A stretch of DNA of 36,657 bases from Bacteroidales bacterium (GTDB lineage: Bacteria; Bacteroidota; Bacteroidia; Bacteroidales; VadinHA17), in contig PLML01000194.1 in assembly GCA_003141525.1 (NCBI GenBank), positions 1 to 36,657 on the forward strand, in the 5' to 3' direction. This document shows positions 14,014-36,550 of the stretch, piece by piece. The notes under the pieces were generated by a model, which ran no database searches, was not told where the DNA came from, and saw nothing but the letters and a program-made list of their open reading frames with translations. The translations under genes were made by a program, and so were the position numbers. The stretch's first letter is position 1; every line of letters begins with the position of its first letter.

Positions 14014-14081
14014 AAGATCTAATGTTTAGTATTTCGCATTTTATAGTTAGCGTTGTCTCCGGCCCTGTGCCCTGTGCCTTT

Positions 14082-14591: not shown

Positions 14592-14628
14592 ATAAAACAA
14601 ATTCAGTTTTTATTCTCCTACTCAACTA

Positions 14629-17954: not shown

Positions 17955-17996
17955 ATCATTGATTTTTAATTGTTTTATTAGTTTCAATTGCAAGGT

Positions 17997-18025: not shown

Positions 18026-19693
18026 CTATTTCATTATAATTCCTTCGCCTTCCAGTATTGTAATATAACGATCTGGTTCAATTTTATTATATGCCTCCTT
18101 TTTACCATCAGACCAGCTGATCTCAAGAAGGTCGATCTTTTTTTGCTGACCCAGTCCGAAATGTACCCTGGGATCGTTGTTTGAGAGATAGCTGGTTGCC
18201 CATTGATTAACCATAACCTGCTTTTTCCCGCCTGCTGTAAGAGTCACTTTTGCACCAATTGCAGAAGCCGGCCCGTTTTTTCCTTTAAGAGTCAATCCGA
18301 GCCAATGATTTCTGTTTCCTCCATCATTTCTCAGAAGTGCAGGTGTTCCATTCTTGTCGAGATGAGAAATAATAATATCGAGATCTCCGTCATTATCAAA
18401 ATCCCAGACAGCTAGAGCCCTGCCTGAACGCTTGGTTGAGAAATAGGCACCATGCTCTTTTCCAACATTCTTAAAATGCCCTTTTCCATCATTTTCCAGC
18501 AATAACGGATATTGAGGGATAAGTTCTTCAGCGGTTCCATTTGCAGCCACTATATCCAGGTCACCATCGTTATCGTAATCAAAAAGCTGTGCACCCCAGC
18601 TACCTTTACCCGCCATAGCTGCTGCAACACCACTTTCCTCGGTAATATCAACAAACAATCCATTGCCCATGTTTTTATAAAGGGCTCCATAATCCAGATC
18701 GGATACAAGGATATCAATCAATCCATCTCCATCAATATCACCTATAGATCCATGCATTGAACCGGTACCTATTCCCTGGCTGTTTGCTGCAACACCGCTT
18801 TGCACTCCAACTTCCTTATAAACTCCGTTATCATTTCTGAAAAGGAAATTCAGTTGATGATCATTGGCCTGAAAGATATCAAGGTTACCATCGTCATTAT
18901 AATCGAATACTGTTAAACCCATGCATTTTGAATCGGGATAATAGAGATTGTTTTTCCGGGTGACATCAATAAATTTTCCATCGGGTTGCTGCTCATACAG
19001 TATCGATGCCTGGCCATTGTACTCTGTAGGACTGGGCATCATTCCGGGTGTTGCCGGTGAAACATAGGCAGGGTCGAATGCCAGAAAGTTGCCAACCATA
19101 GCATCCAGTCTTCCATCGAGGTTATAATCCCAGAAAGCGACCCCGATACTCCATTTTGTAAATCCGTTTAACTTGTCAGGTCCGCTCAGCCCCAGTGAAG
19201 CCGTAATGTCAGTGAATGTTCCGTTGCCGTTGTTATGGTAGAAAATATTCGGGCCATAATTCAAAACATAAAGGTCCTGATAACCATCATTGTCGAGATC
19301 AATGGCACCTGCAGCCATGCTCCATTGGTGACCGCCCACTCCGGCGATTTCTGAGACTTCCGTAAAAGTTCCGTCACCGTTGTTTCGGTACAGCTCGTTA
19401 TGTGAATTCTTATATATTTTCCCTTCAGGATCTGATATGCCTTCCAGGTAGGTTCCATTCATAAGATAAAGATCCATGAAACCATCATTGTTGTAATCAA
19501 ACACGGTAATCCCTGAACCACTGCTCTCCAGAATGTTTTTATATGTGTTATCCCCAAAAGTATATTTGAAAGTAATTCCTGCCTTTTTTGTTATATCTGT
19601 GAAAGTCACATTATTTTTCTGAGCTGAAGACTCAAAAGTTACCAATATCAGCGAGAACAAACATAACAAATCAGTAAACTTCATTTTCATCAT
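18026..19693 (-). CDS. Exported FG-GAP/VCBS beta-propeller with ASPIC/UnbV domain (CRTAC1-like)
   Basis: A 555-residue protein from ATG 19693 (further ATGs at 19690 and 19684 are possible). The signal peptide ends near SSAQ (about 25) without a lipobox, so it is probably periplasmic or secreted. Multiple FG-GAP blades carry Ca-binding DxDxDG-type loops (FDYNNDGFMDLYLMNG, IDLDNDGYQDLYVLNYG, FDYDNDGDLDIVAANG, WDFDNDGDLDIIISH). The C-terminus has the ASPIC/UnbV domain (about 475-545: GAKVTLTAGGKKQ, then DPRVHFGLGQ and EISWSDGK). The family resembles cartilage acidic protein 1; its bacterial function is unknown. It is the second FG-GAP gene in a row here. Confidence 0.9.
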   Translation of the reverse strand: MMKMKFTDLLCLFSLILVTFESSAQKNNVTFTDITKKAGITFKYTFGDNTYKNILESSGSGITVFDYNNDGFMDLYLMNGTYLEGISDPEGKIYKNSHNELYRNNGDGTFTEVSEIAGVGGHQWSMAAGAIDLDNDGYQDLYVLNYGPNIFYHNNGNGTFTDITASLGLSGPDKLNGFTKWSIGVAFWDYNLDGRLDAMVGNFLAFDPAYVSPATPGMMPSPTEYNGQASILYEQQPDGKFIDVTRKNNLYYPDSKCMGLTVFDYNDDGNLDIFQANDHQLNFLFRNDNGVYKEVGVQSGVAANSQGIGTGSMHGSIGDIDGDGLIDILVSDLDYGALYKNMGNGLFVDITEESGVAAAMAGKGSWGAQLFDYDNDGDLDIVAANGTAEELIPQYPLLLENDGKGHFKNVGKEHGAYFSTKRSGRALAVWDFDNDGDLDIIISHLDKNGTPALLRNDGGNRNHWLGLTLKGKNGPASAIGAKVTLTAGGKKQVMVNQWATSYLSNNDPRVHFGLGQQKKIDLLEISWSDGKKEAYNKIEPDRYITILEGEGIIMK

Positions 19694-19900: not shown

Positions 19901-22900
19901 TTATTTTTTAATTGCATTACGAAAATCATCTGATGTTACAACTCTTGTGTTATATTCCTTAATATACTTCTGAAGTTCAGGATCTTTCGGATAAGAATCA
20001 TTTACAGAAGGAGGATAACTTTTCATTCCGTGGAACGGAAGGGGTAAAACACTGTTCCCAGATGCCGTGTTCAGATCGCCATCCTTTACCCAGCCTACAC
20101 AATGGATAAGGAAATCTCTTTTCCATCCGCTTTTTAATTCCGGTAATACTTTAGAATCAAAGTCAATAGATGTTTCATCACCTGCATTTGAGATAATATA
20201 TTTGTTATCCGATTCTGTAAGGAGAGGCAATACATCACCATAACGTGTATAATTCCCTGACAAGTCGCGCCATTTTTTATTTTTATCTGCGGCGGAATAA
20301 TCAAACCAGTGAGGGCCATACCGGCCGCCTTTTCTGTAGCTGTGTGAAAATCCCCTGTAATGCAAATCTGCGGAAACCGGATTAAGCACAGTCGAAATTA
20401 CCGGACCATTTGAAACATTATCGGAAAAGAATATATAATCCCAGTAAATCTCCATATTTGTCCTGATCCTGATCCTGTGATCCCCTGACAGGAATTTGCC
20501 TGAAAGATCTGCAATTACTGTTTTATCTTTTCCCATTGGAAAACCAAGATTTTCAATTACTGTTTCCCATTCACCCTTTCTATTAATTACCTGCACAAAA
20601 GGCCGTATCACTTTCAGATCGGAGGATTGTGAAAGAGCAACGTTAATACTGGCATCGGTTGGAAATATCCAGCCATTCAGAAACAGGAAAAGGTTTTTGC
20701 TTTTTCCCACATCGCCCGGGTCAAGAATCAGGTCGTGCATTTCCGTAACTCCCTGGTATTTATCAGGATTAAAATCAGAAAGATATTTATCGTCTTTCTC
20801 AGCAATAAATGAGAGAACGTCGTTTCCCTGAGAATCTTTTGCACTTACCGGTATATGCTTTTCCTTAACCTGGAATAGCTTATTACCGGGGAAGGGCGGG
20901 GCAGAAAACTGTTCAGGAACGAAAACGTCAATTGAATCAGGATGATCTACGGCAACCAGTTGCACCTGATCGAAGAACATTGTCTCCCAAAGTTCCGATG
21001 TCAACTGAATGGAATACAATCCATTTTTCGGTTTCAATAATTCGCCGGGGATCTTTAAATAATCATCAGATGCATCGGGGAATGCGTACGCTGTATTGCC
21101 TCCCATAATCCCAAGCGGCATCCCGAGGGCGCTTCTCCACATAACATCCTTTACAAATACAAATCCATTGCCATCCCAGGTGAAGAGAAACGGACATGAT
21201 CCCTTCAGTGTCTGTGCCTCAATCAGTGCCTGATCGGTACCAGGTGAAAATATATTCTGTGGTACCCCATTTGTCCATGTGATTCTTATCACATCAGCTT
21301 TTGCCCGGTTTCCCAGCCCGAAATGAACGGCAGGATCAGTCACTACCATTGACTGGTAAAGATCACCTGACCGGATTTCCACTTTTGCTCCGATCCCAAA
21401 ATGATTATTTTTAGCGCTTCCTGCTCTTAACCCTACAAGCTTCATTGTTACATAATGGTTCAAATTTCCACCATCATTCCGTAAAAGAGTAACGCCACCA
21501 TTTAATCCTGCAATCACTATATCAATATCGCCGTCATTATTATAATCAAATAAAGCTATCTGGTTTCCTGATTTGGGTTCTTCCGGCAAAAGTCTGGAGA
21601 CATCTTCAAAATTTCCTTTCCCGTCATTATGATAAAGGAGCACTCCGCGACCGCCTTTCTCTTCTGATTCACCTGCAATAATAAGATCCTGATATCCATC
21701 ATTGTCAAAATCAAAAAACCTGGCATCATAAGCTTTCACGTGCTGCATTGCAGAGAACATCTCTTTTGAATTTTTTACGAGTTCAAAACTGCCATTGCCC
21801 TTATTCCGGAACAGTTCATAGTTACCTCCATTAACTGATGTAATGAAAAGGTCAGGAAATCCGTCATTATTATAATCTCCAACGGCCACTGCTACGGACC
21901 CTCCATTACTTTTCAGACCGCTTTCTTCGGTAATATCCTTAAAGAAACCCTGTCGCTGATTTGAAAATAAGGTATTGCTTGCACTCTCATTTACTACAAA
22001 CAGGTCAATGTCCCCATCGTCATCAAAATCTGCAAAAGCTGCTTCACGGCTATTTGCATTCTTACACGACATTCCCATTTTTTCTGCCTGTTCCTGAAAA
22101 GTGCCATCGCCATTATTCCTGAACATCAGATTTGAATTAGATCTTGTTTCATATAAGTCAAGATCTCCATCATGGTCCATATCGAAGAATAAGGCTCTGT
22201 TTCCCCCGGTTTTGCTGCCAACCTGTACTTTGTCAGTGACATTTTCAAAAACTCCTTTTCCGGCATTTCTGTATAATATATCACCGCCTTCTCTTACAAT
22301 AAAAAGGTCGAGAAATCCATCGTTGTCGTAATCAGCAAATGCAGCCGATGATTCCTTACCCGAATGCTTTATTCCGGCTTCTTCTGAAACATCTTTAAAC
22401 CTGCCCATATCATTGTTAAGGAGGTAGTGCTTATAAGTGGAAGATGCCTGATCGTAGCTTCCCACATAGAGATCCACATCTCCGTCACCATCATAATCAG
22501 CTGCTTCAACATGAGTGGAATAGCGGAATTCTGTATTTTTATCATCAATATTAGCCGGGATAATGTTCAAACCGGCAGATGCAGTTGCGTCGGTAAATTT
22601 AATTGCATCCAGAATTGATTTATTCTCTCCCGAAGAAGAAGTTGGTTGCTGATCATAAGTAATCAGCGGGAAACCGATCAACGATCCGCCAGGCCCTTTC
22701 AGGTCCATAATACCTGCCTGATATGGTGAGGTGACCTTAAGATAATTATGGAAAATTGTGAATTGTACAATCGCATTTTCTTTATCAGGTTTTTTCAGTA
22801 ATGCGAGGGTTTTATTGTAATAATCAATGGCTTCCTTAGGAAATTCCGGAAATTGCTTATGAATAATTTCTAATTGTTCAGTCGCTTTATCAGTCTCTCC

Positions 22901-23458
22901 GTTATGTATGTATATCTCGGTAAGACTAAGTCGTGGCACAAGATTCTCCGGAGCTTTTTCAACCAGCTGAAGCAGGAAATTCTTCCGTTGTTGCTGGGAT
23001 TCAGCATCGCTTGCTGCAGAATATAATTCAGTAAGATCATATAGTATTTTAATATGGTCAGGGGCAAATTTAAGAGCATCTTTAAGTTCTGAAATAGCTT
23101 TTTCACGTTCATCATTCATCTGATAAACCGTAGCCAGCAATAATCTGATATCAGGATCTTTCGGATCAATTTTTATTGCTTCAAAGAGCTGTTTTTTTGC
23201 TTCAGGATATTTACCCATTCTTAAGTAGGCCAATCCAAGGTTTGCATATCCAAGTTTTTCATGTGGTGCAAGTTTGATGAACTTTAGAAATTCTTTTTCA
23301 GCTTCGTCAAGTTTAAACTCTTCAAGATATGCAAGACCCATGGTTTGGGTCGTCATCAATTCAACTGATTTTTGTTTGCTGTCTTTTGCACTTTCCCTGC
23401 AGCTGAATAGAAAAGAGGAGCAAAGTGCAATTAGTAATAAAATGTTATATTTCTTCAT
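19901..23458 (-). CDS. Giant TPR-FG-GAP-ASPIC lipoprotein with a large unassigned C-terminal domain
   Basis: A 1,185-residue protein started at ATG 23458 (MKKYNILLL), which gives a clean lipoprotein signal with lipobox LFSC (Cys20). Order of parts: tetratricopeptide repeats (about 30-230; AYLEEFKLDEAEKEFLKFI, ANLGLAYLRMGKYPEAKKQL), then FG-GAP/VCBS blades (about 310-660, with many DGDGDVDLYVG-type Ca loops), then an ASPIC/UnbV module (about 680-745), then about 430 residues starting near CPFLFTWDGNGFVFVKDVMW that match no domain I can name. Expected location is the outer-membrane surface or periplasm. It is preceded by a 238-base repeat-rich gap, so it may have its own transcript. A binding or scaffold role is a guess. 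Confidence 0.9.
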   Translation of the reverse strand: MKKYNILLLIALCSSFLFSCRESAKDSKQKSVELMTTQTMGLAYLEEFKLDEAEKEFLKFIKLAPHEKLGYANLGLAYLRMGKYPEAKKQLFEAIKIDPKDPDIRLLLATVYQMNDEREKAISELKDALKFAPDHIKILYDLTELYSAASDAESQQQRKNFLLQLVEKAPENLVPRLSLTEIYIHNGETDKATEQLEIIHKQFPEFPKEAIDYYNKTLALLKKPDKENAIVQFTIFHNYLKVTSPYQAGIMDLKGPGGSLIGFPLITYDQQPTSSSGENKSILDAIKFTDATASAGLNIIPANIDDKNTEFRYSTHVEAADYDGDGDVDLYVGSYDQASSTYKHYLLNNDMGRFKDVSEEAGIKHSGKESSAAFADYDNDGFLDLFIVREGGDILYRNAGKGVFENVTDKVQVGSKTGGNRALFFDMDHDGDLDLYETRSNSNLMFRNNGDGTFQEQAEKMGMSCKNANSREAAFADFDDDGDIDLFVVNESASNTLFSNQRQGFFKDITEESGLKSNGGSVAVAVGDYNNDGFPDLFITSVNGGNYELFRNKGNGSFELVKNSKEMFSAMQHVKAYDARFFDFDNDGYQDLIIAGESEEKGGRGVLLYHNDGKGNFEDVSRLLPEEPKSGNQIALFDYNNDGDIDIVIAGLNGGVTLLRNDGGNLNHYVTMKLVGLRAGSAKNNHFGIGAKVEIRSGDLYQSMVVTDPAVHFGLGNRAKADVIRITWTNGVPQNIFSPGTDQALIEAQTLKGSCPFLFTWDGNGFVFVKDVMWRSALGMPLGIMGGNTAYAFPDASDDYLKIPGELLKPKNGLYSIQLTSELWETMFFDQVQLVAVDHPDSIDVFVPEQFSAPPFPGNKLFQVKEKHIPVSAKDSQGNDVLSFIAEKDDKYLSDFNPDKYQGVTEMHDLILDPGDVGKSKNLFLFLNGWIFPTDASINVALSQSSDLKVIRPFVQVINRKGEWETVIENLGFPMGKDKTVIADLSGKFLSGDHRIRIRTNMEIYWDYIFFSDNVSNGPVISTVLNPVSADLHYRGFSHSYRKGGRYGPHWFDYSAADKNKKWRDLSGNYTRYGDVLPLLTESDNKYIISNAGDETSIDFDSKVLPELKSGWKRDFLIHCVGWVKDGDLNTASGNSVLPLPFHGMKSYPPSVNDSYPKDPELQKYIKEYNTRVVTSDDFRNAIKK

Positions 23459-23530
23459 TATAATCAAGTTTTTTAAAGACAACATTGTTATTCTATGCTT
23501 TCTGAAATGGCCTTGTTTGTTCGCTTTTTT

Positions 23531-23696: not shown

Positions 23697-24821
23697 TTAC
23701 CTCTCAACCATAACCGGAACACCATTTTTTATCTCTATCAGACCGGGAGTACCCATACGTTTTCCTTTATCATCAAACTGAATTAATCCGGTGACACCTT
23801 CATATTGTATCTTTGTAAGAGCCTTTTGAATGTTTTCGCGATCAAGGCCTGCATTTCTGATGGCTTCAATTAGCAAATTAATGCCATCAAATGAATATGC
23901 TGCAACCGCACCCGGCAATTTACCATAGGTTTTATGAAACTCCTCCCGGAAGGCCAGGCCCTTTGATCCCGAAAAGTTTCCCGGGGAAATCAGTATAACA
24001 TTCTCATAATATTTCATGTCCTGACCTGAAATTTCATTTTCATCAAGAAGAGACAGGGATCCAAATACTGATTGGTTCATTTTCCTTTCCCTCAATTGAT
24101 TAATTAGTCTAATCGAAGCCGAAGGTTTTCCAAACAGAATAATACCTCTGACATCAGCACTTTTAATCTGATCAATTAAACCATTAAAATCCTGAGCTTG
24201 ATTATCATAGAATAGCTGTACCGGATCTGCTTTACCTGAAAGTTTTATTTTTTTCAAATAGTTTTCCAGCGCCATTTTTGAATCATAATCATTATCTGAG
24301 ACGGCTGCTATTTTAGTTAATTGTCTTTTATTATAGATTTCTTCAATAAGAGCATCAGCCTGCTGAAGGTCGGTTGGTACACAGCTGAAATACCACGGTA
24401 CAAAAGCCTGTGCAAGGGTAGGATCACTTGCCCATGCTGATAAAAATACTATCCTTGCCTTGGTAGTAACCTGTTCAACAAGGTGAGCATTTCTCCCGTC
24501 GGGGGAACCCATTAATGCCCGGACATTTTCTTCAAATATAAGGTTAACGGCTTCCCTGGAGCCAGTGCCCCAGGGGCCTTCCATAGAGCGCACAACTAGC
24601 TGAAAAGGTTTACCATTAAACCCTCCTTTTTCGTTGGCTTTGCGTATTGCCAATTCAGCTCCGTGTCTTGCAGCCAGGGAGTTATTATCAGGGATTAACA
24701 GTCCTATTTTTACTGTCTTATCTGACCCATCCGGATTTTGGATGGTTAGTATGTCCGGGATTATAAATCCCGGTAAGGCTGATATCAGGCATGCCGGTAA
24801 TAATAGTTTCAGTAATTTCAT
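23697..24821 (-). CDS. Periplasmic substrate-binding protein, Peripla_BP_6 / LivK-like (second copy)
   Basis: A 374-residue protein starting at ATG 24821 with a signal peptide (about 1-24). The type I periplasmic-binding fold is recognisable: KIGLLIPDNNSLAARHGAELAIRKANEKGG (about 37-66), then GSPDGRNAHLVEQ and VAAYSFDGINLLIEAI near the C-terminus. The family binds branched-chain amino acids, amides/urea or aromatic acids for ABC importers. No permease or ATPase gene is present anywhere in the window. It is the last gene of the tight eight-gene run, starting 20 bases after DAHP synthase, and is a distant paralogue of the protein encoded at 25743-27053. The ligand is unknown; a sensory role is possible. 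Confidence 0.85.
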   Translation of the reverse strand: MKLLKLLLPACLISALPGFIIPDILTIQNPDGSDKTVKIGLLIPDNNSLAARHGAELAIRKANEKGGFNGKPFQLVVRSMEGPWGTGSREAVNLIFEENVRALMGSPDGRNAHLVEQVTTKARIVFLSAWASDPTLAQAFVPWYFSCVPTDLQQADALIEEIYNKRQLTKIAAVSDNDYDSKMALENYLKKIKLSGKADPVQLFYDNQAQDFNGLIDQIKSADVRGIILFGKPSASIRLINQLRERKMNQSVFGSLSLLDENEISGQDMKYYENVILISPGNFSGSKGLAFREEFHKTYGKLPGAVAAYSFDGINLLIEAIRNAGLDRENIQKALTKIQYEGVTGLIQFDDKGKRMGTPGLIEIKNGVPVMVER

Positions 24822-24841: not shown

Positions 24842-25723
24842 TCAAACATGAGATGGTTTTGTCAGCAAAATTTCTCTCCCGACTGCTAATGCTATTTTAT
24901 TCAGATCGGACATCAGCAGCGCAAATTCATCGATGCTGAGCGACTGGTACCCGTCACATATTGCCTCTTCAGGTTTATAATGCACTTCTATTATCAGTCC
25001 GTCTGCACCTACAGCCACTGCCGCTTTTGCCAATGCAGGCACCATCCAGCGGAGACCTGTTCCGTGACTTGGATCAACAATTACAGGAAGATGACTGAGT
25101 CGTTTTAGCATCGGAACGGCGCTAAGGTCGAGTGTATTTCTGGTGGATGTTTCAAAAGTACGGATACCCCGTTCACAAAGAATCACCTGTTCGTTGCCCT
25201 GATTAAGGATGTATTCGGCTGCCAATAGATACTCTTCAATAGTCGCCATCATACCCCGCTTCAGTAAAACCGGTTTCCGGCACATTCCCGCCTCCTTCAG
25301 AAGAGGATAGTTTTGCATATTGCGTGAACCAATCTGAATCATATCGGCGTATGAAGCCACCAGTTCAATCTGCCTTGTATCCATCACCTCTGTGACAATG
25401 GGTAATCCGGTCTCCTCTCTTATCATTGCCAGCAGTTTCAACCCTTCTTCTCCCAGTCCCTGGAAATTATACGGCGAAGAGCGGGGTTTGAAAGCTCCAC
25501 CTCTTAATAACCTGGCCCCGCCTGCTTTTACCGACCTTGCGGTTTCGAACAGTTGTACCCGGCTCTCAACGGCACATGGTCCTGCTATAACTATAATTTC
25601 AGAACCGCCTACCTGAACGTCATTAATACTGACTATTGTATCATCAGGTTTTGTCTTGCGGCTCACTCTTGACGGGATTGCAGATCCACCGTTTATGCGA
25701 TTGTTGCATGGATTTGTTTCCAT
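24842..25723 (-). CDS. aroF: 3-deoxy-7-phosphoheptulonate (DAHP) synthase, type I-beta
   Basis: A 293-residue protein starting at ATG 25723. Motifs in order: AGPCAVES (47-54), [17 protein letters not shown] (73-89, with the substrate Lys-Pro-Arg), [47 protein letters not shown], and [19 protein letters not shown]. It lacks the N-terminal ACT/ferredoxin-like regulatory domain of many I-beta enzymes, so it is probably not feedback-regulated by that route. It condenses PEP and erythrose 4-phosphate, the entry to chorismate. Its place between two orphan binding proteins and next to a Rid/chorismatase-like gene suggests a dedicated pathway supply rather than housekeeping. Confidence 0.95.
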
Positions 25724-25742: not shown

Positions 25743-27053
25743 TTAGTAATTACCTGTTTTACTGCCTACTTTATTCTTAGGATCAATTGACGGAGCGGGA
25801 GTGAATTCGAACTTGCCATGGCGAACTTTAGCAATCCAGATATCTGCAATATTGTTCCAGCTCTTATCAAATACCTTTTTGCCGGTCACGCCCTGGTACC
25901 CCTGAAAAGTCTTCAGATCGGTGAGAACATCGCGGATTAAAACCCTGTTCAGCCCTACTTTATTTATAGATTCAATGATCATATTCATACCGTCATAAGC
26001 ATGTGCTGCGAATACATCCGGTTCCAGGCCGAATCTGTTGAAATAATTGGTCTGAAATGCTTTTAATTTTGGATTATCGGAGTTTGGGTTATACTGACAT
26101 GTAGTCATTATGCCATCAGCCAGGTTGCCTGCAATTTTAAGAAACTCCGGAGAAACCATCCTGTCTGAGCCATAGATTGGTTGTTCTAATCCCATTGCAC
26201 GCATCTGCTGTAAAATAAGTCCTGATTCTCTGGCGTTGCCCCAGATAAGTATAGCATCGGGGGCAGTTGCCATAATCCTCTCAAGCTGTGTTTTGAAATC
26301 TGTTTCTCCGTCGTTAAACCGCTCTTCAATAACCATTGGATGCCCAACACGGGTGGCTGTTTCCGAAAATATTTTGATCCCCACTCTTCCATACCGGTTG
26401 TTTGCCCTGATCACTGCAACCCTGGAATGACCGTCCTTTTTGTAAATCTCGTTAACCAGCGCATAGCTACTCTGCCGATCATCGCTGATAACACGAATTA
26501 CCCAGGGTATATTCGTCTCAGTGAAAGTAGGATCCGGATCACCGGGACATACCATAGGTATTTCCAGCTTAAGTGTTGCTCGTATTGCAACATGAGACAC
26601 TATATCGTCAATGGAACCCAGCCATGCCCACACTTTTTCATCATCCATTTTGACAACTTCATTTGCAGCTGCACCCCATGCGCCTACATCATTATATATC
26701 ATTAATTTGAAGGGAATTCCATGATACCCTCCTTTTTTATTGGCCTCTTCAATTGCCAGAGAGGCTCCCTGCAACATCTGTTTTCCGAGGGAAACAATTT
26801 CTGAACCTTCCAGTGGCCCTAAAAATCCAATTCTTACCTCTTTAATGTCTTTGGGAGGAGGAATCTCCCTTCCGGCTCCATAGAATTGTATGGGTTCAAG
26901 AAAAAAATACTTATAGGCTTTCTGAAACCTCTGATATGGAAAAATTTCATCAGTAGCCTTACCATAGTTCTGTTTATTATCCTGTCCGGTTAAAATTGAA
27001 ACGGAACAAAGGATAAGCACAACAACTGATAATAATCTACAGTTTAGTTTCAT
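25743..27053 (-). CDS. Periplasmic substrate-binding protein, Peripla_BP_6 / LivK-like (first copy)
   Basis: A 436-residue protein started at ATG 27053 ([11 protein letters not shown]), which gives a proper signal peptide ending near ILTGQ; the frame upstream crosses the preceding gene and is not used. An unusual 60-residue linker ([20 protein letters not shown] and beyond) precedes the binding fold. The fold begins [13 protein letters not shown] and includes [30 protein letters not shown], and [14 protein letters not shown] at the end. It is adjacent to DAHP synthase (19-base gap) and the Rid-like gene (10-base gap). Transporter partners are absent. Amino acid, amide or aromatic-acid ligands are all plausible for this family. 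Confidence 0.87.
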
Positions 27054-27063
27054 GATCTGAGTT

Positions 27064-27639
27064 TTAATTTGATTTACAAATTGCATATACTTCAATTTCC
27101 ACCAGCAGGGTCTCCCAGCATAACCGCGCCTGAATTCCGGTACTGGCAGGCAGAGGATCAAGATTAAGCCATTGATAAAAAGAGGTACGTATTTTATTGA
27201 ATTCGGCATAATCCCTTTCAATATCCCTGAGATAGTTTGTTGTTCTGACCACATCGTGCCAGGTCATCCCTTCAGCTGCCAGGAGATTGGTTATATTGAC
27301 GTAAGTTCTCCATAGCTGGGCTTTGAAATCACCAATATGTTCTGGTTTCCCTTCTTCATTAACACTGGCTGTCCCTGAGATTAGTAAAACCTTGTGACCA
27401 CCAAAATCAAGGCGCAGCGCCCTTGAAAAGGATGAGGGTTTCTGATAGTTATAAGCTTCATTGATTACATGCGGAGCATGCACCACATGTTTTTCAATCG
27501 GAGGCCTCTTCATATGCAGAGAAGGATATACATATCCGTTGATTTTATTTTCATTGGATAAAATCCCGAGTTTTTTCATCTCCACTCTCTCTCCATCAGA
27601 AAGTTTTGACAGATCTATGAATAATTGCTTTTCCTCCAT
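27064..27639 (-). CDS. Rid-fold (YjgF/UK114) protein with chorismatase-like features
   Basis: About 191 residues from ATG 27639 (MEEKQLF). Another ATG at 27657 is possible; the frame further upstream translates a word repeat from a TTG. It is longer than the usual 125-residue RidA. The Rid core runs from LLISGTASV (about 83-91) to the C-terminus, with WHDVVRTTNYLRDIERDYAEFNKIR, PLPASTGIQA and a last strand LCWETLLVEIEVYAI. ISGTAS and C-x-x-x-LLVEIE are reminiscent of FkbO/Hyg5/XanB2 chorismatases, which are built from this fold but are about 330 residues. It is near DAHP synthase. The alternative is an ordinary imine/enamine deaminase. I favour a specialised Rid protein with uncertain chemistry. 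Confidence 0.75.
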   Translation of the reverse strand: MEEKQLFIDLSKLSDGERVEMKKLGILSNENKINGYVYPSLHMKRPPIEKHVVHAPHVINEAYNYQKPSSFSRALRLDFGGHKVLLISGTASVNEEGKPEHIGDFKAQLWRTYVNITNLLAAEGMTWHDVVRTTNYLRDIERDYAEFNKIRTSFYQWLNLDPLPASTGIQARLCWETLLVEIEVYAICKSN

Positions 27640-27709
27640 TATTTCAACTATTTCCATTATTTTAACCCTTTCCACTTTTAAACTTTTCAATTCTTTCAAC
27701 TCTTCAACT

Positions 27710-28870
27710 TTATTTCAGCAGCTCTCCACGACTTACCCCTTTTTCAGTGGCAACCCACAGGAAATCTTTATCGGCATCCACACCAATTATAAAATTATGA
27801 GCAATTGATGGTGATAATGGCATTTCCCTTGTAGTTTTATTGATGGTGCTGTCACTTTCACGGCCATAGTTTTTTATTATAGCCATTCCATTGCTGCTAT
27901 TGTCGTTTTTCTTATATGTCACCCAGCTCTTGCCATTGGTGCTGCTTAATCCTTTATCGGTACAAATAAATACTACCGGACCTTCGGCCCTGAGAAAGTT
28001 GATAAAATTACTTGCCAGACCGCTGTCATGGTCAAAATACCCCTTCCAGTGAGTACCGTCATAACTGCTCATACCGAAGTATGTAGATACCCACAACATG
28101 CCATCTGCCCAGGAAGTTGCTGTTGTTATATCATGAACTACTCCGTCATCTGGGAGCAGATCGATCTCCATTTCACCATCGGGATCGGTGTAATCCTTGA
28201 ATTGTTTTGTTTTTTTTGTGTATTCAATTACCCCACCACCCCAGGCTGCTATAAAGATCTTCCCATCGCCTGCAGAAACTCCATAAGTCCAGGGTTCATG
28301 CATGGGAGCATTCTTTTCCGTGAATATTTCCCATTCTTTCGTGAAAGTATCATAATGACCGGCACCGCCTCCAGTGGCAGTCCATACGTCTTTACCATCG
28401 CAGATAACACAGTAAACCAGATCATTTGGAAGTCCGCTGTCAAACTGAGTGAAGTTTTCAAATTTGCCTCCGGAAAACCTGCTTAGCCCGCCTAGAGTTC
28501 CTATCCAGACATCTCCTGTTTCTTTGCTTACATCGATTGCAAGCACTCCGTTATGAGGCAAACCGTCCTTTGTTGTGTAGGTTTTCCATTTTCCATCTTC
28601 ATAAACTGCAAGGCCATCGTGAGTTCCTGCCCATACACGTTTCCCGTCTATGCGAACGGCATATACATGATCGGAAGGTAAACCATCCTTTGTTGTGAAA
28701 TTCTTCCAATGACCATACACAGGCATCGATTTGGCATCATCTTTAGAATTAACTTTAACCCCGCTTTTTTCGACAGAGGGCTGAGAATTAATAACTGCAA
28801 CATAACAAATACCACAGATAATCATTGCAAATGTCGTTCTCAGGCTATTCTTTTGTAATGTTTTTCTCAT
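27710..28870 (-). CDS. Exported two-component-regulator-type beta-propeller (Reg_prop)
   Basis: A 386-residue protein starting at ATG 28870, with a signal peptide (hydrophobic about 12-28). Repeated blades of the Reg_prop type are clear: WKNFTTKDGLPSDHVYAVRI, VWAGTHDGLAVYEDGKWKTY, then VWIGTLGGLSRFSGGKFENF, VWTATGGGAGHYD and LWVSTYFGMSSYDG. In Bacteroidota such propellers normally form the sensor part of hybrid two-component proteins. Here there is no kinase or membrane-spanning part after it, so it is a free periplasmic or surface propeller. It follows the diheme-propeller gene by 11 bases. It may bind a partner or ligand in the cluster's extracytoplasmic assembly. Confidence 0.88.
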   Translation of the reverse strand: MRKTLQKNSLRTTFAMIICGICYVAVINSQPSVEKSGVKVNSKDDAKSMPVYGHWKNFTTKDGLPSDHVYAVRIDGKRVWAGTHDGLAVYEDGKWKTYTTKDGLPHNGVLAIDVSKETGDVWIGTLGGLSRFSGGKFENFTQFDSGLPNDLVYCVICDGKDVWTATGGGAGHYDTFTKEWEIFTEKNAPMHEPWTYGVSAGDGKIFIAAWGGGVIEYTKKTKQFKDYTDPDGEMEIDLLPDDGVVHDITTATSWADGMLWVSTYFGMSSYDGTHWKGYFDHDSGLASNFINFLRAEGPVVFICTDKGLSSTNGKSWVTYKKNDNSSNGMAIIKNYGRESDSTINKTTREMPLSPSIAHNFIIGVDADKDFLWVATEKGVSRGELLK

Positions 28871-28881: not shown

Positions 28882-30918
28882 TTAATTTGATTTGTTTTTA
28901 GCATGATTTTTCTTCAAATCATTTATTTCATATTCAGGTGTCCTGAGTGATTTCAGATAATCGATAAGGTCATTCAGCTGATTTTTTGTCATATCATTAA
29001 CCCGTCCGTGCTTGTCTTCCTTCCCGTACTTTGTCCATATCTCCTCAAGTGTAGCTGCACGCCCATCATGTAAATATGGCGGTGAAGCATAAATATTATC
29101 CAGATGAGGAGTATCAAATAGTATAGAATCGTCAGTTTTAGAAAGTGTACTTACATACGCCAGTTTTTTGTTGGTATAATATGGTGGCGGATGACAGGTA
29201 ATGCAACGATTATTTTCAGGTATCTCCTTGCCAAAATTATCCACCGAACGTTCAAAGATGGTTTTACCCCTTAGCTGCGCCTCAGTCAGTTCACCATTCG
29301 GATTGTACATTAAATTGGGAGGAGCATGAATTCCTGTAATGATATATGCAACAAGAGCATCGAGTTCCTTATAGCTAAACGCTTCTGTTCTAGTAAGAAA
29401 AGTAGAAAAACGAATACCATCCTGTTTATAAACAGTCATATTGGTACCTGACCATTTATATGGAGGGGTTTCGCTTATATCTCTCAAAGTCATGGTATTT
29501 GTAACGTTACGTCCCATGTCCTTGCCTGACATATTATAAACAAGACCATCTTCATGCATGTCAGGATGACAGGTATAACAGCAGTACTGATTCTGAAAAG
29601 TGTGCCTCGCATTATTAAAAAGTCTGCGTCCCTGGCGAGCTACGGTAATCTTTCCAGGGCCGCCGAGATCAATGGTATTGATCGTCTCCAGGCTTTCTGT
29701 ATTTATTACTGCGACTCTGTCTTCCAGTTGTTCGGCAACATACAGAAGTTTTCCGTCAGGAGACAGAGCCATTCCTTTAGGATCTGCTCCGGTTTTAATA
29801 TGTTTTATGATATAGCGGCTGCTGATACCAAGATTATCAGAATAGGTTTTCAGCATTTCAGGCGAAGCTTCTGCAATTAAGGCCCTGACGGAGTCTATGT
29901 CTATGACTGAAATACAATTGACACCGGCACTTGATTCGAAAGCTTTTTTGCCGTCAGGTGTAATGACAATACCAAAAGGATCTGAATAGTAGGCATTTGG
30001 TTCATCGAGCAATAACTGAATTATCCTTTCGTTATTCTTCAGATCAATTATCCCGAATCCATGAGTCATCATCCAACCCTGTTCAACCTGGATGGACGGA
30101 ATGAGGTTTTTAGGCCGGATCAATGTCACAAATCCCAGGTCTCCTGTAGGAGTAAAAGCAACATTCTCCATCATATAGGCCGATTCCATGTTTTTATATT
30201 CAAGCACTCTTTGTGTACTGTCAGTTATTACAGTGAGTTCGGTTACGACAGGTTCTCCATAAGGTACAATATTTGCACGCCGGCCCGTTACAAAGAGTAT
30301 TTTTCCGTCAGGAGATAATTTGATTCCTGTCGGATTATTTCCTGCTATCAGCCTTTTTATTTCTTCCCTGGTATTCAGGTCAATTACAGATATATCTGAT
30401 GAGTATGAATTAACAACATACAGGAATTTGCCATCTGCACTTAACGAAAGCCCTGCGGGACCATTACCTGTTTTTAGCGTATCTATAACTATTGAAGTTG
30501 TTAAATCTATAACAGACACATTGTCTGACCATTGATTGCTGACATAAGCCCTTTTCCCATCGCTGTTGAGAATTACTGAATGCGGTTGATTCCCGACACT
30601 AATCTTGTTCAATACTTTTTGTGTTTCATTATCTACCACTAAGAGGGCTTTACCTTCCTGTGCCACCACGTACAGGCGTTTACCATCTGCAGAAACTGCC
30701 AGATTAAGTGGTGAAAGATAATCAGCATTGACCAGTTTTGAAATAATGCCGGTCTTTTGGATATAGAGGTGGCAGGAGGTACATAAAAGAGGATGGTCAG
30801 TTGTGGCTGTTTTGGAATTAACATGTGCTCTGGCCATGTTGCGTCCGGGAAAATAAATCAGCAAACCCAATGCAAGAACAATTCCGGATAACCGTATTAA
30901 TTTATGAGATCTCATCAT
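28882..30918 (-). CDS. YVTN beta-propeller fused to MauG/CcP-like diheme cytochrome c (triheme in total)
   Basis: A 678-residue exported protein starting at ATG 30918. After a signal sequence comes a first heme site CTSCH (46-50). A YVTN/YncE-type propeller spans about 60-430 (AVSADGKRLYVVAQEGKALLVV, GKRAYVSNQWSDNVSVID, GKFLYVVNSYSSDISVID, DGKLLYVAEQLEDRVAVIN). Next is a MauG/cytochrome-c-peroxidase-like domain with CYTCH (447-451, followed by PDMHEDGL) and CITCH (572-576), then DTPHLDNIYASPPYLHDGRAATLEEIW-type ligand motif. This order mirrors a fusion of the hydrazine synthase propeller and diheme subunits. It lies 2 bases after an HzsA-like gene. Peroxidase, oxygenase or radical coupling chemistry are all possible. 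Confidence 0.9.
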   Translation of the reverse strand: MMRSHKLIRLSGIVLALGLLIYFPGRNMARAHVNSKTATTDHPLLCTSCHLYIQKTGIISKLVNADYLSPLNLAVSADGKRLYVVAQEGKALLVVDNETQKVLNKISVGNQPHSVILNSDGKRAYVSNQWSDNVSVIDLTTSIVIDTLKTGNGPAGLSLSADGKFLYVVNSYSSDISVIDLNTREEIKRLIAGNNPTGIKLSPDGKILFVTGRRANIVPYGEPVVTELTVITDSTQRVLEYKNMESAYMMENVAFTPTGDLGFVTLIRPKNLIPSIQVEQGWMMTHGFGIIDLKNNERIIQLLLDEPNAYYSDPFGIVITPDGKKAFESSAGVNCISVIDIDSVRALIAEASPEMLKTYSDNLGISSRYIIKHIKTGADPKGMALSPDGKLLYVAEQLEDRVAVINTESLETINTIDLGGPGKITVARQGRRLFNNARHTFQNQYCCYTCHPDMHEDGLVYNMSGKDMGRNVTNTMTLRDISETPPYKWSGTNMTVYKQDGIRFSTFLTRTEAFSYKELDALVAYIITGIHAPPNLMYNPNGELTEAQLRGKTIFERSVDNFGKEIPENNRCITCHPPPYYTNKKLAYVSTLSKTDDSILFDTPHLDNIYASPPYLHDGRAATLEEIWTKYGKEDKHGRVNDMTKNQLNDLIDYLKSLRTPEYEINDLKKNHAKNKSN

Positions 30919-30920
30919 AA

Positions 30921-32354
30921 TTATTCAGTGTCAATCAATTTCTCTTTAATCTTTTTTATAGGAACCGGAACACTTATCGGAGATTTTTTTACTGCCAGAG
31001 GTATTCTGTTTTCGGGAACAAGCTCCTGATCTTCGTGACAGCCTACGCATCCCCTTCGTTCATTAGGTCGTAACCATATCCAGTCACAACTCTGTATAAC
31101 ATGTCCATCTTTATCCAGAGAACGGATCTGAAAAGGTGTATCAGCTAATATTCTTAAATAAAGTGATCCGTCTTTCGCTGCCTGAACAATCCCGAGTGAG
31201 GAATCTATTCCCATAATTTCAATGTTACTTGTCTTTGGTAATGATATAGATTTGACAGATAATTGAGTGTCGTTCAGATTGACATCCTGGCAGACTATTA
31301 ATCCGGTTTTAATGTCCATATGAACTTCACTTGGCAGTTTTTTCGGCCTGTCATGTTTTTCAACTTCTACAGCTTCAAGTACATCAAAGTCGTTATCATT
31401 ATATATCTTTTTGCCAAAAGTTTTAGTGTCAGGATCAAATTCATAAAGAGAGAACCGGTCCGATTCAGACTTTCGATATGAAACCAATAGTTTTCCTGAA
31501 TGTTCCGGATAAACGGAATGAAAATCTCCTCGAGTATCAGAGATGAGATTAACTTTTGAATGTAAAGGCCGGTTATAGGTTACGGAAATTATCTTCCCGG
31601 TTGCCGGACTGTCTTTATCCGATTCTATGAACACGACCCTCCCATTTGCAATTTCCAAACCCTGGCCCGACAAATTACTGCCTTCAGTACCTTTATAGAA
31701 CAATTCAGTCTTTGTACCGTCAGGTCTTAGAATCATATACTTCGGATCTCCATGTTTGGGATAAACAGGCTGGTCAATTGTCAAAATACGTCCATCGCTC
31801 ATAATATTTGATGCAAAATAGGTATGAGGATCAAAAGTGATACGTTGCAGGTCACTGCCATCTAAATTACAGGTAAAGAGGGAAGTACCACTTTTTACTT
31901 TGCCATACCGGGTAGATTTGCTGAATACAAATCTACCGAGTGGTAAATAACCAGGATCGGTGCAGTTTTCTTTTGAGGCGATTATTTGTCTGGATTTTAG
32001 ATTTTTAAGATTCATCTCCCATATCTGCCACGGGTCATTCTGTTTCAGCTGAGCAGAAAAAAGCAAATATTTTCCATCATATGAAATCTGTGGAGCCCTT
32101 GCAGAATAGTAATCAGAAGTAAGTACCTTTAATGATGCTTCAGGTTTATCAGGGTCCAATTCTACGATCTGTGCCTGGGGAATATACTTCAAGGAATCTC
32201 CTGTTTCGTAATTTATATTCTGCACCTTTTTTGGAAACCTGGTAAAAATTATCATTCCATCTCTGGTTTTTTTTCTGCAGGATGATAAAAAGATGCAGGA
32301 AAAGCCAATGGCCATTATGAAGGATAAGCCTATGGTAGCTCTGAGTTTATTCAT
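30921..32354 (-). CDS. HzsA-related PD40-propeller lipoprotein with one C-terminal heme-c site
   Basis: A 477-residue protein starting at ATG 32354, with lipobox LSSC (Cys26). A WD40/PD40-like propeller follows (APQISYDGKYLLFSAQ, IWEMNLKNLKSRQI). Then come segments typical of the hydrazine synthase alpha-subunit relatives: EAVEVEKHDRPKKLPSEVHMD, TGLIVCQDVN, ADTPFQIRSLDKDGHVI, and DWIWLRPNERRGCVGCHE with CVGCH at 436-440. In the true HzsA a tyrosine four residues after the heme His ligates iron; here that position is Glu. The internal Cys of GLIVCQDV could match its zinc ligand. Function outside anammox is unknown. It is encoded 2 bases before the propeller-diheme gene, so the two products probably form a complex. 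Confidence 0.85.
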   Translation of the reverse strand: MNKLRATIGLSFIMAIGFSCIFLSSCRKKTRDGMIIFTRFPKKVQNINYETGDSLKYIPQAQIVELDPDKPEASLKVLTSDYYSARAPQISYDGKYLLFSAQLKQNDPWQIWEMNLKNLKSRQIIASKENCTDPGYLPLGRFVFSKSTRYGKVKSGTSLFTCNLDGSDLQRITFDPHTYFASNIMSDGRILTIDQPVYPKHGDPKYMILRPDGTKTELFYKGTEGSNLSGQGLEIANGRVVFIESDKDSPATGKIISVTYNRPLHSKVNLISDTRGDFHSVYPEHSGKLLVSYRKSESDRFSLYEFDPDTKTFGKKIYNDNDFDVLEAVEVEKHDRPKKLPSEVHMDIKTGLIVCQDVNLNDTQLSVKSISLPKTSNIEIMGIDSSLGIVQAAKDGSLYLRILADTPFQIRSLDKDGHVIQSCDWIWLRPNERRGCVGCHEDQELVPENRIPLAVKKSPISVPVPIKKIKEKLIDTE

Positions 32355-32361: not shown

Positions 32362-34062
32362 TTATTTTTGGGGCTCTTTGACAGTAAGAATCTGATTGGC
32401 CTTTATATTCTCAAGTACCTGTAACTTACCTGATGGCCACTTTATCTCAATTCTATCAACAATCTCATTCTTAGCAAGTCCAAAATGCATCCTGGGATCA
32501 TTCTGGGACAGATAACCTGTTGTACTTTTTTTCTGAGCAGTCTGTACTTTGCCTCCTGAAGTTACTTTCACCCTTGCACCTATTCCATCCCTGTTACTTA
32601 TTGTTCCGATCAGATTAAGCATTATCCAGTTATTCTGATTTCCCTTATTGTTTCTGAGGAAAGCTCCACGGTCATTAAGATTAACAATATATGCATCAAT
32701 ATCACCGTCATTGTCATAATCGCCAAAACATGCCCCGCGTCCGACAAGTTTCTTCTTAAAGTAACTGCCCAGATCCCAGGAAACATCCTTGAATTTTCCA
32801 TTTCCCAGATTTTCGAATACCTGATCTTCCTGGCCGTAAAGATGTTTTAGCGCTCCGTTTGTTTTATAAATATCAACTAAACCGTCATTGTTATAATCAA
32901 AGAAAGATGAGGACCATCCGACAAACTGCCCGGCAGGCATTGCAATGCCCGATGGATATGACTGATCAGTGAATATCCCGTTCCCCATGTTTTCAAACAG
33001 TCTGCAATACTTATCATCAGAAATAAACATATCCATCAACCCGTTACCAAGATAATCGGCAAAATCCACTGACATACTTACAGTTGATTCACCTGATTGA
33101 CCAAATGCTGTTCCTGAAGGAGTGCCCATATCGGTGAAACTTTTTCCGCCGTTATTATGCCAGAGATAGTTCATTGAATGGTCATTGGCAACATAAATAT
33201 CAACGAAACCATCATCGTCATAATCAGCAGCTCCGACACCCATAGCTCGTCCATCAAGGTCAACGATTCCCATTTTTTTTGTCACATCTTCAAAAGTGCC
33301 ATCTCCATTGTTGTGATAAAGAACATCGGGCTGGGCGTCGTAGGCTAACGGGCCGGGAAAGCCGTCGGGAGCGTAATAGTATTTATAGTTAGGATCAAAA
33401 TTAAGGTATTTGCCTACATACAGATCGAGGAAACCGTCGTTATCATAATCCAGCCATACTGCTCCCGTGTTGAAATCAGTTTCTTTTCCTCCGACTCCGG
33501 CATGCCTGGTAACATCTGTAAATGTACCGTCACCATTATTTTTATAAAGTACGTTGGTTCCGTAATTGCTTACGTACATATCAGGATAACCATCATTATT
33601 ATAATCACCCACGGTTACTCCCATGCTATACCAGGGTCCGCCAACACCTGCTTTTTTTGTCACATCTTCAAAAGTACCATCTCCGCGATTATGATAAAGA
33701 TGATTCTCAGGCATAACAGCTGGTTTATCACCGCTGCTTATACCTTTAAGCCAGGTCCCGCTGCATATGTATAAATCGATATATCCATCCTGATCATAAT
33801 CGAGAAAAGCAGCTCCGGCGCCGCTTGATTCAACGATATTAGTTAGTTCATTGTCGCCGATGGAGTGAACAAAATCGATGCCGATCTCTTTTCCTATCTC
33901 CTGGAAATAATCACCATTTGAAGCAGGAACAAAATGTTTCTGTGAGCCGGATGAAGCTTTATGATTGGATTGGCAGGCGGAAATTGATAGCAAAAAAACG
34001 AAAAGGAAAGCGAAGCATCTGGATTCATTTGAATTGTTGCAAAACTTCTTTATTACAAACAT
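32362..34062 (-). CDS. FG-GAP/ASPIC-UnbV lipoprotein (CRTAC1-like), first gene of the cluster
   Basis: A 566-residue protein starting at ATG 34062, with a lipoprotein signal and lipobox SISAC (Cys30). FG-GAP blades with Ca loops repeat about every 45-60 residues (LDYDQDGYIDLYICSG, GDYNNDGYPDMYVSNYG, LDYDNDGFLDLYVGKY, ADYDDDGFVDIYVAND, FDYNNDGLVDIYKTNG, GDYDNDGDIDAYIVN). An ASPIC/UnbV domain closes the protein (about 485-562: GARVKVTSGGKVQ, DPRMHFGLAK, EIKWPSGKLQVLE). It leads the operon, 7 bases before the HzsA-related gene. It is a paralogue of the proteins encoded at 18026-19693 and, in its middle part, at 19901-23458. Surface or periplasmic scaffold is the likeliest role. Confidence 0.92.
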   Translation of the reverse strand: MFVIKKFCNNSNESRCFAFLFVFLLSISACQSNHKASSGSQKHFVPASNGDYFQEIGKEIGIDFVHSIGDNELTNIVESSGAGAAFLDYDQDGYIDLYICSGTWLKGISSGDKPAVMPENHLYHNRGDGTFEDVTKKAGVGGPWYSMGVTVGDYNNDGYPDMYVSNYGTNVLYKNNGDGTFTDVTRHAGVGGKETDFNTGAVWLDYDNDGFLDLYVGKYLNFDPNYKYYYAPDGFPGPLAYDAQPDVLYHNNGDGTFEDVTKKMGIVDLDGRAMGVGAADYDDDGFVDIYVANDHSMNYLWHNNGGKSFTDMGTPSGTAFGQSGESTVSMSVDFADYLGNGLMDMFISDDKYCRLFENMGNGIFTDQSYPSGIAMPAGQFVGWSSSFFDYNNDGLVDIYKTNGALKHLYGQEDQVFENLGNGKFKDVSWDLGSYFKKKLVGRGACFGDYDNDGDIDAYIVNLNDRGAFLRNNKGNQNNWIMLNLIGTISNRDGIGARVKVTSGGKVQTAQKKSTTGYLSQNDPRMHFGLAKNEIVDRIEIKWPSGKLQVLENIKANQILTVKEPQK

Positions 34063-35871: not shown

Positions 35872-35872
35872 T

Positions 35873-36550
35873 CTAAAAATCTCCAAAAACGTATCCAAAC
35901 CCAACCCTGGTATGGATCATCTTTTTATCATGTCCTTTATCAATTTTCTTTCGTAAGAAGTTTACATAAACATCCACGACATTAGTCCCGAAATCAAACT
36001 TTATATCCCACACCTTTTCAGCAATATCTATCCTTGACAATACCCTGCCGCTATTCCTCATGAAGTATTCAAGCAATGAAAATTCTTTTGCGGTCAGCTC
36101 AATATATGTATTTCCCCTGTGGGCAACTTTCTTTTCAAGGTCGAGTTCCAGGTCGCCGACTACAAGTACATTGACTGTTTCAGCCAGTTGCTCAGGTTTT
36201 CTTACCAATACCTTAACCCTGGCCAGCAGTTCCCTGAACTCAAACGGTTTCACCAGGTAATCGTCCGCCCCGGACTGGAGACCGCGCACACGATCCGCAA
36301 CGGTGTCTTTCGCAGTCAGAATGAGCACGTGAGTGTTCTTGCCCTGGGTGCGCAGACGATGGAGCAACGTCAGACCGTCCATGCCCGGCAACATCAAATC
36401 GAGGATGATCGCATCGTACGGGTTGGATTCCGCATACCAAAGCCCTTCCTTGCCGTCCCCCGTGACGTCCACGGCGTAGCCGGCCTTCTTCAGCGCCGTT
36501 CCGACCGAACGCTGCAATAGTTTGGAATCCTCAATCAGAAGTACTTTCAT
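35873..36550 (-). CDS. OmpR/PhoB-type response regulator, with a composition break inside the gene
   Basis: A 225-residue regulator started at ATG 36550 (MKVLLIEDSK). The receiver has the acidic IED pair (7-8), phospho-acceptor Asp51 (LDLMLPGMDG), Thr79 and Lys101 (DDYLVKPF). The winged-helix DNA-binding domain (about 130-222) ends in HTRVGFGYVFGDF. The reading frame is intact. However, codons for about residues 1-103 lie in DNA of about 59% GC, while the rest lies at about 41%, like the rest of the window. The switch sits at the highly conserved KPFEF motif near 36240, where unrelated genomes share sequence. The protein may therefore be a chimera of two organisms' genes, from misassembly or recombination. 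Confidence 0.88.
   Translation of the reverse strand: MKVLLIEDSKLLQRSVGTALKKAGYAVDVTGDGKEGLWYAESNPYDAIILDLMLPGMDGLTLLHRLRTQGKNTHVLILTAKDTVADRVRGLQSGADDYLVKPFEFRELLARVKVLVRKPEQLAETVNVLVVGDLELDLEKKVAHRGNTYIELTAKEFSLLEYFMRNSGRVLSRIDIAEKVWDIKFDFGTNVVDVYVNFLRKKIDKGHDKKMIHTRVGFGYVFGDF

Follow-up and report, generated by a model that had tools for sequence, protein, structure and literature searches.

A remote hydrazine synthase homologue encoded by a gene pair in a conserved operon of Bacteroidota

The DNA analysed here, referred to throughout as the window, is a stretch of 36,657 nucleotides of contig PLML01000194.1 from a Bacteroidales bacterium (GCA_003141525.1), and all coordinates are window positions. 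On its minus strand lie two neighbouring genes whose products resemble the subunits of hydrazine synthase (HZS). The first (30921..32354) encodes an HZS-alpha-like lipoprotein of 477 amino acids, composed of a propeller and a middle domain with one c-type heme motif (C436-VG-C439-H440) and without the C-terminal heme-alphaII domain; the second (28882..30918), which follows 2 bases downstream, encodes a fused HZS-beta-gamma-like protein of 678 amino acids with an N-terminal hydrophobic helix, a propeller and a diheme gamma domain. Both open reading frames (ORFs) were found with the positions and spacing given in an earlier, sequence-only reading of the window, and the three segments quoted there from the alpha protein (TGLIVCQDVN, ADTPFQIRSLDKDG and RPNERRGCVGCHE) are all present in it. 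The accompanying statement that no other anammox gene lies nearby is true for 30 of the 36 listed window ORFs, which were scanned with Pfam, the six left out being frames of 120–152 amino acids that overlie other ORFs.

The alpha protein has a lipoprotein-type start with Cys26 and a single CXXCH motif at 436, and its C-terminus lies only 37 residues past that motif. Three such motifs were found in the beta-gamma protein: the first at 46–50, which is the additional heme near the N-terminus already noticed from the letters, followed by a seven-bladed propeller (about 61–418) and the two gamma motifs (447–451 and 572–576). When each protein was shuffled 2000 times, one motif was reached in 9 alpha shuffles and three motifs in 0 beta-gamma shuffles. 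Relatives were collected in one contig scan, which gave 228 alpha relatives, and the figures reported here refer to the best 80 of these 228 (loci L064–L143); alignments were restricted to complete frames, available at 73 of the 80 loci for alpha and at 63 of the 80 for beta-gamma, with the window sequence added to each set. One heme motif was counted in 74/74 alphas and three in 64/64 beta-gammas, the presence of the motif in the 80 relatives being partly by construction because one of the two scan patterns contains it. The lipoprotein cysteine is shared by 67 of the 74 aligned alphas, and His32 and His42 of beta-gamma, near the first heme motif, are invariant. The N-terminal hydrophobic helix leads into this region, for which reason a membrane-anchored point of electron entry or exit is proposed. 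A gene for a cytochrome c assembly protein was also found in the genome of the window.

The remote homology to HZS that had been proposed for both proteins was borne out by profile, NCBIfam, Pfam and PDB matches. The alpha protein matched PF18582 HZS_alpha with an E-value of 1.6e-16 (61 bits, Pfam cut-off 26.6) and the NCBIfam model of HZS alpha with 1.5e-26, while the beta-gamma protein matched the models of HZS beta (1.2e-63), gamma (4.9e-25) and the beta-gamma fusion (8.5e-73), in agreement with the fused arrangement described before. The NCBIfam equivalog/exception cut-offs were missed by far, with 92.6 of 800 bits for alpha, 215.4 of 560 for beta, 88.2 of 625 for gamma and 245.6 of 1250 for the fusion. 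In sequence searches of the PDB, chain A of 5c2v was the best match of alpha (4.4e-21), and chains B (7e-52) and C (2.1e-20) were matched by beta-gamma, 5c2v_C being the sole diheme protein among the beta-gamma matches at the thresholds used. For the propeller, a single sequence alone would not settle the choice between HZS beta and a generic YVTN protein: the surface-layer YVTN propeller 1l0q is marginally ahead of 5c2v_B in the single-sequence search (2.4e-56) and marginally behind it when the family profile is used.

The AlphaFold2 model of alpha, built on the alignment of 74 sequences, had a mean pLDDT confidence score of 86.3, and a Foldseek search of the PDB placed 5c2v_A first (E = 2.0e-25, TM score of 0.76 on the query), with TolB as the next protein (5.5e-10). 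The beta-gamma model, built on 64 sequences, had a mean pLDDT of 74.7, with the propeller mostly above 90; for this propeller 5c2v_B was again first (8.0e-34, TM score of 0.90 on the target), the next match having an E-value of 1.4e-23. The blade-6 insertion of HZS beta is retained, as indicated by an ungapped profile alignment across it. The superposition on HZS anticipated by the sequence-only reading was obtained for alpha (on 5c2v_A) and beta (on 5c2v_B) as single-chain models, whereas the identity of gamma is supported by sequence only, because this domain was modelled with low confidence. When the gamma domain alone was searched against PDB sequences, HZS gamma was found at 1e-21 and the next diheme enzyme, of CcP type, at 1.2e-4. 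A generic YVTN propeller joined to a CcP domain was ruled out, since the fold search places HZS beta first and the gamma domain alone places HZS gamma first by far. Homology to all three HZS subunits is demonstrated by these profile matches, and the alpha and beta folds by the predicted models.

Key residues of the HZS active sites, whose positions were counted from the heme motifs, are changed. In alpha, the heme alphaI motif is kept, the C-terminal bis-His heme alphaII domain of HZS alpha is absent, and the Tyr591 ligand is gone, there being no Tyr after His440. A glutamate, Glu444, stands at His+4 in 69 of the 74 aligned sequences. The sequence-only reading had held that this Glu replaces the Tyr ligand; the loss of Tyr was upheld, whereas the equivalence of the two residues depends on the alignment, since the published one has a two-residue gap at Ser590/Tyr591 in clades I–III (Hagglund et al. 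2025, PMC12758564, accessible text). The zinc-binding Cys303 of HZS alpha (chain position 276, counted from His587) aligns with Thr223, and, according to the accessible text of the same paper, this cysteine is likewise missing from the HZS of Scalinduaceae (PMC12758564).

In gamma, the profile alignment places Trp489 at His144 of HZS, and Trp was found there in 64/64 beta-gammas. Asp168, which we take to be the HZS site residue at heme gammaI, aligns with Phe504 in the same profile alignment. Besides Trp489, residues Gln499, Glu512, His617 and His637 are conserved in 64/64 beta-gammas, as are Arg503 and Arg510; Gln499 and Glu512 are presumably the counterparts of the peroxide-cleaving Gln and Glu of CcP/MauG. 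The roles of HZS residues, including gamma His144 and Cys165, are given in the part of Hagglund et al. 2025 accessible to us, where Cys165 is described as a third bond to the heme and as present in clade I of the HZS homologues (PMC12758564). Cys165 lies opposite Asp500 by profile alignment and within an insertion with no window counterpart by single-sequence alignments. At the place of Asp500 a Cys was found in 6 of the 64 beta-gammas (L110, L128, L131, L137, L139 and L143), which belong to Cyclobacteriaceae, Cytophagales and one Marinimicrobia metagenome-assembled genome (MAG); their segment, CGMRFSxF, is similar to CGRDPGF of HZS, and they form one group in the beta-gamma tree with a support of 96/100. 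Rooting this tree on Kuenenia HZS, in order to ask whether the Cys is ancestral, was dropped, since the outgroup branch of about 10 changes per column makes the root uninformative.

By the features compared, the pair is not hydrazine synthase proper, since it scores far below the NCBIfam cut-offs, lacks the heme alphaII domain along with the Tyr ligand and the zinc Cys, and has a Trp at the position of gamma His144. The quaternary plan, as judged from the predicted domains, cannot be identical to that of HZS either, the heme-alphaII domain at the C-terminus of HZS alpha being missing. Because the catalytic residues of HZS are not kept, the chemistry is probably different, as the sequence-only reading had also suggested.

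Paired HZS homologues outside the known anammox bacteria have already been described (Hagglund et al. 2025, PMC12758564), and, as far as the accessible text of that paper goes, the window pair fits its clade III in every feature tested, the assignment being made by features; the class of homologue is therefore already known. Both share the order of an FG-GAP/CRTAC1 gene, alpha and fused beta-gamma with two substrate-binding protein (SBP) genes downstream; a shorter alpha in which heme alphaI is kept and alphaII lost; and one extra beta-gamma heme motif together with Trp at gamma His144. Among the features compared no difference from clade III was found. In its accessible text two species outside the PVC group are named with co-located homologues, the taxa of clade III are not named, and no mention was found of the RidA-fold, DAHP synthase, AsnB-like and radical SAM genes discussed below, nor of the longer operon, its presence en bloc, named cultured hosts or a Cys-bearing subclade outside clade I. 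In the open-access literature, PMC12758564 was the only paper found on hydrazine synthase with CRTAC1.

Compared with the HZS of Kuenenia stuttgartiensis (PDB 5c2v/5c2w), the window pair shares the alpha propeller and middle domain with the heme alphaI motif, the seven-bladed beta propeller with its blade-6 insertion, and the diheme gamma. It differs in lacking the heme alphaII domain, Tyr591 and the zinc Cys303; in having Trp for gamma His144, Phe for Asp168 and, by profile alignment, Asp for Cys165; in its reversed gene order; and in the extra N-terminal heme and hydrophobic helix. With the diheme enzymes CcP, MauG and MbnH, the window gamma has in common two CXXCH motifs, Trp at the place of HZS His144 and a PYxHDG segment, whereas its sequence match to them is much weaker than to HZS gamma, and its chain also holds a propeller of the HZS-beta type, with an HZS-alpha-type protein as the other member of the pair. 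The fusion of beta and gamma is shared with Scalindua HZS (PMC12758564, accessible text).

Judged by record titles, the best 80 of the 228 relatives are Bacteroidota, except for one Marinimicrobia, one Chlorobiota and one FCB-group MAG, and the cultured hosts among them are Maribacter luteus, M. polysiphoniae, M. aquimaris and M. arenosus, and Lutibacter citreus. The conserved adjacency of the pair that had been put forward as a check was confirmed: of the 72 loci that extend 900 bases or more past alpha, 69 have beta-gamma no more than 400 bases downstream, wider gaps of 415 and 460 bases were found in L123 and L110, respectively, and in L115 alpha stands without beta-gamma. A CRTAC1-type gene lies no more than 400 bases upstream of alpha in 73/73 loci with at least 1200 bases there. 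In a separate set of 27 loci fetched from relatives of the window, the order CRTAC1, alpha, beta-gamma was seen in 20/20 loci in which alpha has 45% or more identity with that of the window. Searches with the window proteins did not detect the operon at the other 7 of the 27 (L037, L038 and L057–L061); these hold HZS_alpha proteins less closely related to that of the window, mostly on short contigs, and one of them (L060) has a weak beta-gamma-like neighbour. Among 60 near relatives, 24 have an HZS_alpha domain of any kind, and a sample of 395 genomes of the phylum gave 17 with such a domain, of which 13 exceed the cut-off (the window's genome being included in both sets). No relative was found on viral contigs.

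L115 lies on a MAG chromosome record (CP070687.1) in which CRTAC1 and alpha are kept and beta-gamma and the downstream operon are absent; searches of this genome (G464) for the AsnB-like and radical SAM genes gave no match, and its alpha is possibly orphan or decaying.

The pair is part of a longer series of minus-strand genes. Directly upstream of alpha is the gene (32362..34062) of the CRTAC1-type FG-GAP/ASPIC-UnbV lipoprotein-like protein. Downstream of beta-gamma follow, by Pfam, genes for a two-component-regulator propeller (Reg_prop) protein (27710..28870), a RidA-fold (Ribonuc_L-PSP) protein (27064..27699) and a Peripla_BP_6 substrate-binding protein, SBP1 (25743..27254), whose true start is probably internal to the ORF; then a DAHP synthase (24842..25723), which scored over the NCBIfam cut-off, and, again by Pfam, a second Peripla_BP_6 protein, SBP2 (23697..24821), a TPR and FG-GAP/UnbV protein of 1194 amino acids (19901..23485) and a second CRTAC1-type protein (18026..19693). 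The series is completed in the window by an asparagine-synthetase-like (AsnB-like) PP-loop protein (16626..17993) and a radical SAM protein (15686..16714) that is nearest to the archaeosine-forming RaSEA (98.4 bits, cut-off 212.15). Counted over the 48 loci for which 9 kb downstream of alpha were available, beta-gamma, Reg_prop, SBP1 and SBP2 are each present at 47, while 44 have the TPR protein, 39 the RidA-fold protein and 36 DAHP synthase; L115 is without any of the downstream members counted. The AsnB-like and radical SAM genes, which stand at the operon end in the window, lie upstream of CRTAC1 or elsewhere in other genomes. They were sought in 40 alpha-bearing genomes chosen among those of the 80 loci; at the locus, 39 of these have the pair, and one, that of L115, lacks beta-gamma. 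The AsnB-like gene was present in 36 of the 40 and the radical SAM gene in the identical 36, both lacking in G457, G464, G473 and G481. Since the gene had already been seen at the locus in 12 of these genomes, the independent figure for AsnB is 24/28.

Within the genus, the operon is mostly present or absent as a unit. In a comparison of 36 genomes, 35 of the genus and one from another family of the order, many of them fragmentary, 19 carried the alpha, beta-gamma, SBP1 and AsnB-like genes together, 14 had none of the four, and 3 had only some of them, namely beta-gamma and SBP1 in G012, SBP1 and AsnB in G021, and all but SBP1 in G029. Among the 15 genus genomes without alpha and beta-gamma, the AsnB-like gene was found in one (G021). 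These gene counts demonstrate strict pairing of alpha and beta-gamma inside a long conserved operon.

Several observations were made on the neighbouring genes themselves. By eye, the N-terminal half of the AsnB-like protein resembles a degenerate amidotransferase domain. In the RidA-fold protein an SGTAS...H.GD segment was noted, together with weak similarity to a chorismatase (TIGR04444, 1e-5), and the arginine that we take to be usual near the C-terminus of RidA proteins appears to be missing. Nothing useful came from comparing the DAHP synthase with phages. Upstream of the operon, a histidine kinase and a response regulator (34504–36592) have heavy-metal/copper sensor families as their nearest matches, under the cut-offs, and only some of the relatives have them next to the operon. 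About 4–10 kb upstream of alpha, mostly on the opposite strand, genes that by eye are SusC-like occur in 17 of the 80 loci and SusD-like ones in 16. Past the operon end (11150–14600), two Sulf_transp genes and two rhodanese proteins were noted.

At roughly even odds (about 0.5), the pair is considered to be a member of the non-anammox branch of the HZS family, forming a periplasmic alpha-betagamma heme complex that acts on a small metabolite of the operon's pathway; it is most likely a membrane-anchored periplasmic multiheme enzyme of a small-molecule pathway, with a chemistry differing from that of HZS. Alpha and beta-gamma would form the complex in the periplasm, the N-terminal helix would hold beta-gamma at the inner membrane, and the heme adjoining this helix, with the invariant His32 and His42, may exchange electrons with the membrane. 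Peroxide or some other small oxidised molecule, perhaps a nitrogen oxide, would be activated at the gamma diheme site, where HZS His144 is replaced by a Trp of the CcP/MauG type; this Trp, together with the retained HZS-like His637, suggests a hybrid site in which an HZS-type scaffold is combined with hole transfer of the CcP/MauG type. The alpha heme would be a second, changed site, reached past a loop of the beta propeller and acting on a small molecule. Such a metabolite might be delivered or sensed by SBP1 and SBP2 and made or consumed by the RidA-fold, DAHP-synthase, AsnB-like and RaSEA-like enzymes, and the complex would not make hydrazine as an energy substrate. In archaeosine synthesis RaSEA is the cleaving half of an add-then-cleave amination, and by analogy the AsnB-like ligase and RaSEA-like lyase may hint at nitrogen transfer onto a small molecule; the two form an unnamed module that is worth a study of its own.

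A number of results weigh against this enzymatic interpretation. No substrate is indicated by the evidence gathered, the small-molecule part rests on the neighbour genes, and some of the neighbours that suggest a pathway are optional, as the counts for RidA and DAHP synthase show (39/48 and 36/48). G021 holds AsnB and SBP1, and neither alpha nor beta-gamma was found in it, while L115 holds an alpha unaccompanied by beta-gamma. The gamma diheme domain has pLDDT values mostly of 30–60 in the AlphaFold2 model. Alpha evolves almost twice as fast as beta-gamma (mean distance 0.98 vs 0.54), which is unusual for a catalytic subunit. Distance covariation was calculated for the 37 loci with all genes, controlled for the other operon proteins, the pairs not being independent, and gave 0.47 for alpha-beta and 0.41 for alpha-gamma, close to the 0.55 of beta-gamma, two domains of the same chain. 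These values in themselves favour a complex; SBP2 and alpha gave 0.56, as strong as beta's value. As proof of a complex, covariation was rejected, since it is not specific when SBP2 covaries with alpha equally.

Among the alternatives, a redox relay or sensor, in which the complex would pass or sense electrons or small gases (NO, O2 or peroxide) and regulate or power the operon without a substrate of its own, is unlikely, though more probable than the others. It would account for the third heme at the membrane-near N-terminus, for the kinase and regulator that immediately precede the operon in the window and in some relatives, and for the SBPs in the company of no permease among the scanned window neighbours, the other gene clusters common to at least 5 of the 80 loci being only the SusC/SusD-like genes and one small 5-locus cluster. 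The kinase and regulator are, however, not general among the relatives, and gamma is better conserved than the propeller (mean distance 0.44 vs 0.60), which, together with the invariance of Trp489, Gln499, Arg503, Arg510 and Glu512, suggests catalysis.

It is quite doubtful that gamma is a modifier of the MauG/MbnH type, using peroxide to oxidise a residue of a neighbouring secreted protein such as CRTAC1, although the CcP/MauG-type Trp, a weak match to the MbnH family (TIGR04039, 8e-8) and the constant position of the CRTAC1 gene directly upstream (73/73) are in its favour. Such a role would leave alpha without a function, and gamma is far nearer to HZS gamma than to the other solved diheme enzymes found (1e-21 and 1.2e-4). 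The ligand at the place of His637 is Tyr in MauG and Met in CcP, whereas His637 itself, aligned with a His of HZS gamma, is kept in 64/64.

A true hydrazine synthase or HZS-like N-N former, in which gamma would reduce NO and the product would move to the alpha heme to be coupled with ammonia or an amine, is highly improbable, for although all three HZS modules are retained, the AsnB-like and RaSEA-like genes may suggest nitrogen transfer chemistry and 6 of the 64 relatives have a Cys at the position of HZS gamma Cys165, the heme alphaII domain, alpha Tyr591 and Cys303, gamma His144 and Asp168 and, in the window, also Cys165 are not kept, the genome gave no match to the hydroxylamine/hydrazine oxidase family (PF13447, HAO-type) in a search without a positive control, the control genomes giving no match either, and several carriers are cultured Maribacter and Lutibacter, which are aerobes. 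The idea of an unrecognised anammox organism was set aside, as the genome gave no further HZS_alpha gene and, in the same search without a positive control, no HAO-type match, and as key residues are lost.

What the analysis adds is that the paired homologue is a constant part of an operon in many Bacteroidota, among them Maribacter and Lutibacter strains in culture, in which the pair could be knocked out and purified. The cytoplasmic enzymes of the operon point to a pathway, and, as the pair sits in cultured strains in an operon with such enzymes, the ancestral function of the HZS fold becomes directly testable. A bolder proposal, which we regard as very unlikely, is that the operon of Bacteroidota and a Marinimicrobia relative is biosynthetic: the AsnB-like, RaSEA-like, RidA-fold and DAHP synthase enzymes would prepare a secreted small molecule, on which a two-site heme complex of the HZS type would make an N-N or N-O bond. 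HZS would in that case have its source in, or have been recruited together with, a natural-product or cofactor enzyme and would not have arisen for anammox, and the Cys-bearing subclade would be a living intermediate near HZS at heme gammaI.

More distant alpha-like sequences were also observed. A fragmentary genome of the same order (G046, loci L057–L061) gave five HZS_alpha matches in open frames of 620–1163 amino acids. Plasmids gave four records with matches of 23–27% identity, three annotated as SUMF1-domain proteins and one unannotated. In a Parabacteroides distasonis plasmid (L154; NZ_OY725748.1, 80279–97598), an alpha-like stretch with 25% identity is embedded in a protein that bears the annotation SUMF1/EgtB/PvdO family, in a cluster that also holds a YncE-family gene and a CcsA cytochrome c biogenesis gene, and two Aureibacter plasmids have alpha-like matches with a similar SUMF1-type annotation.

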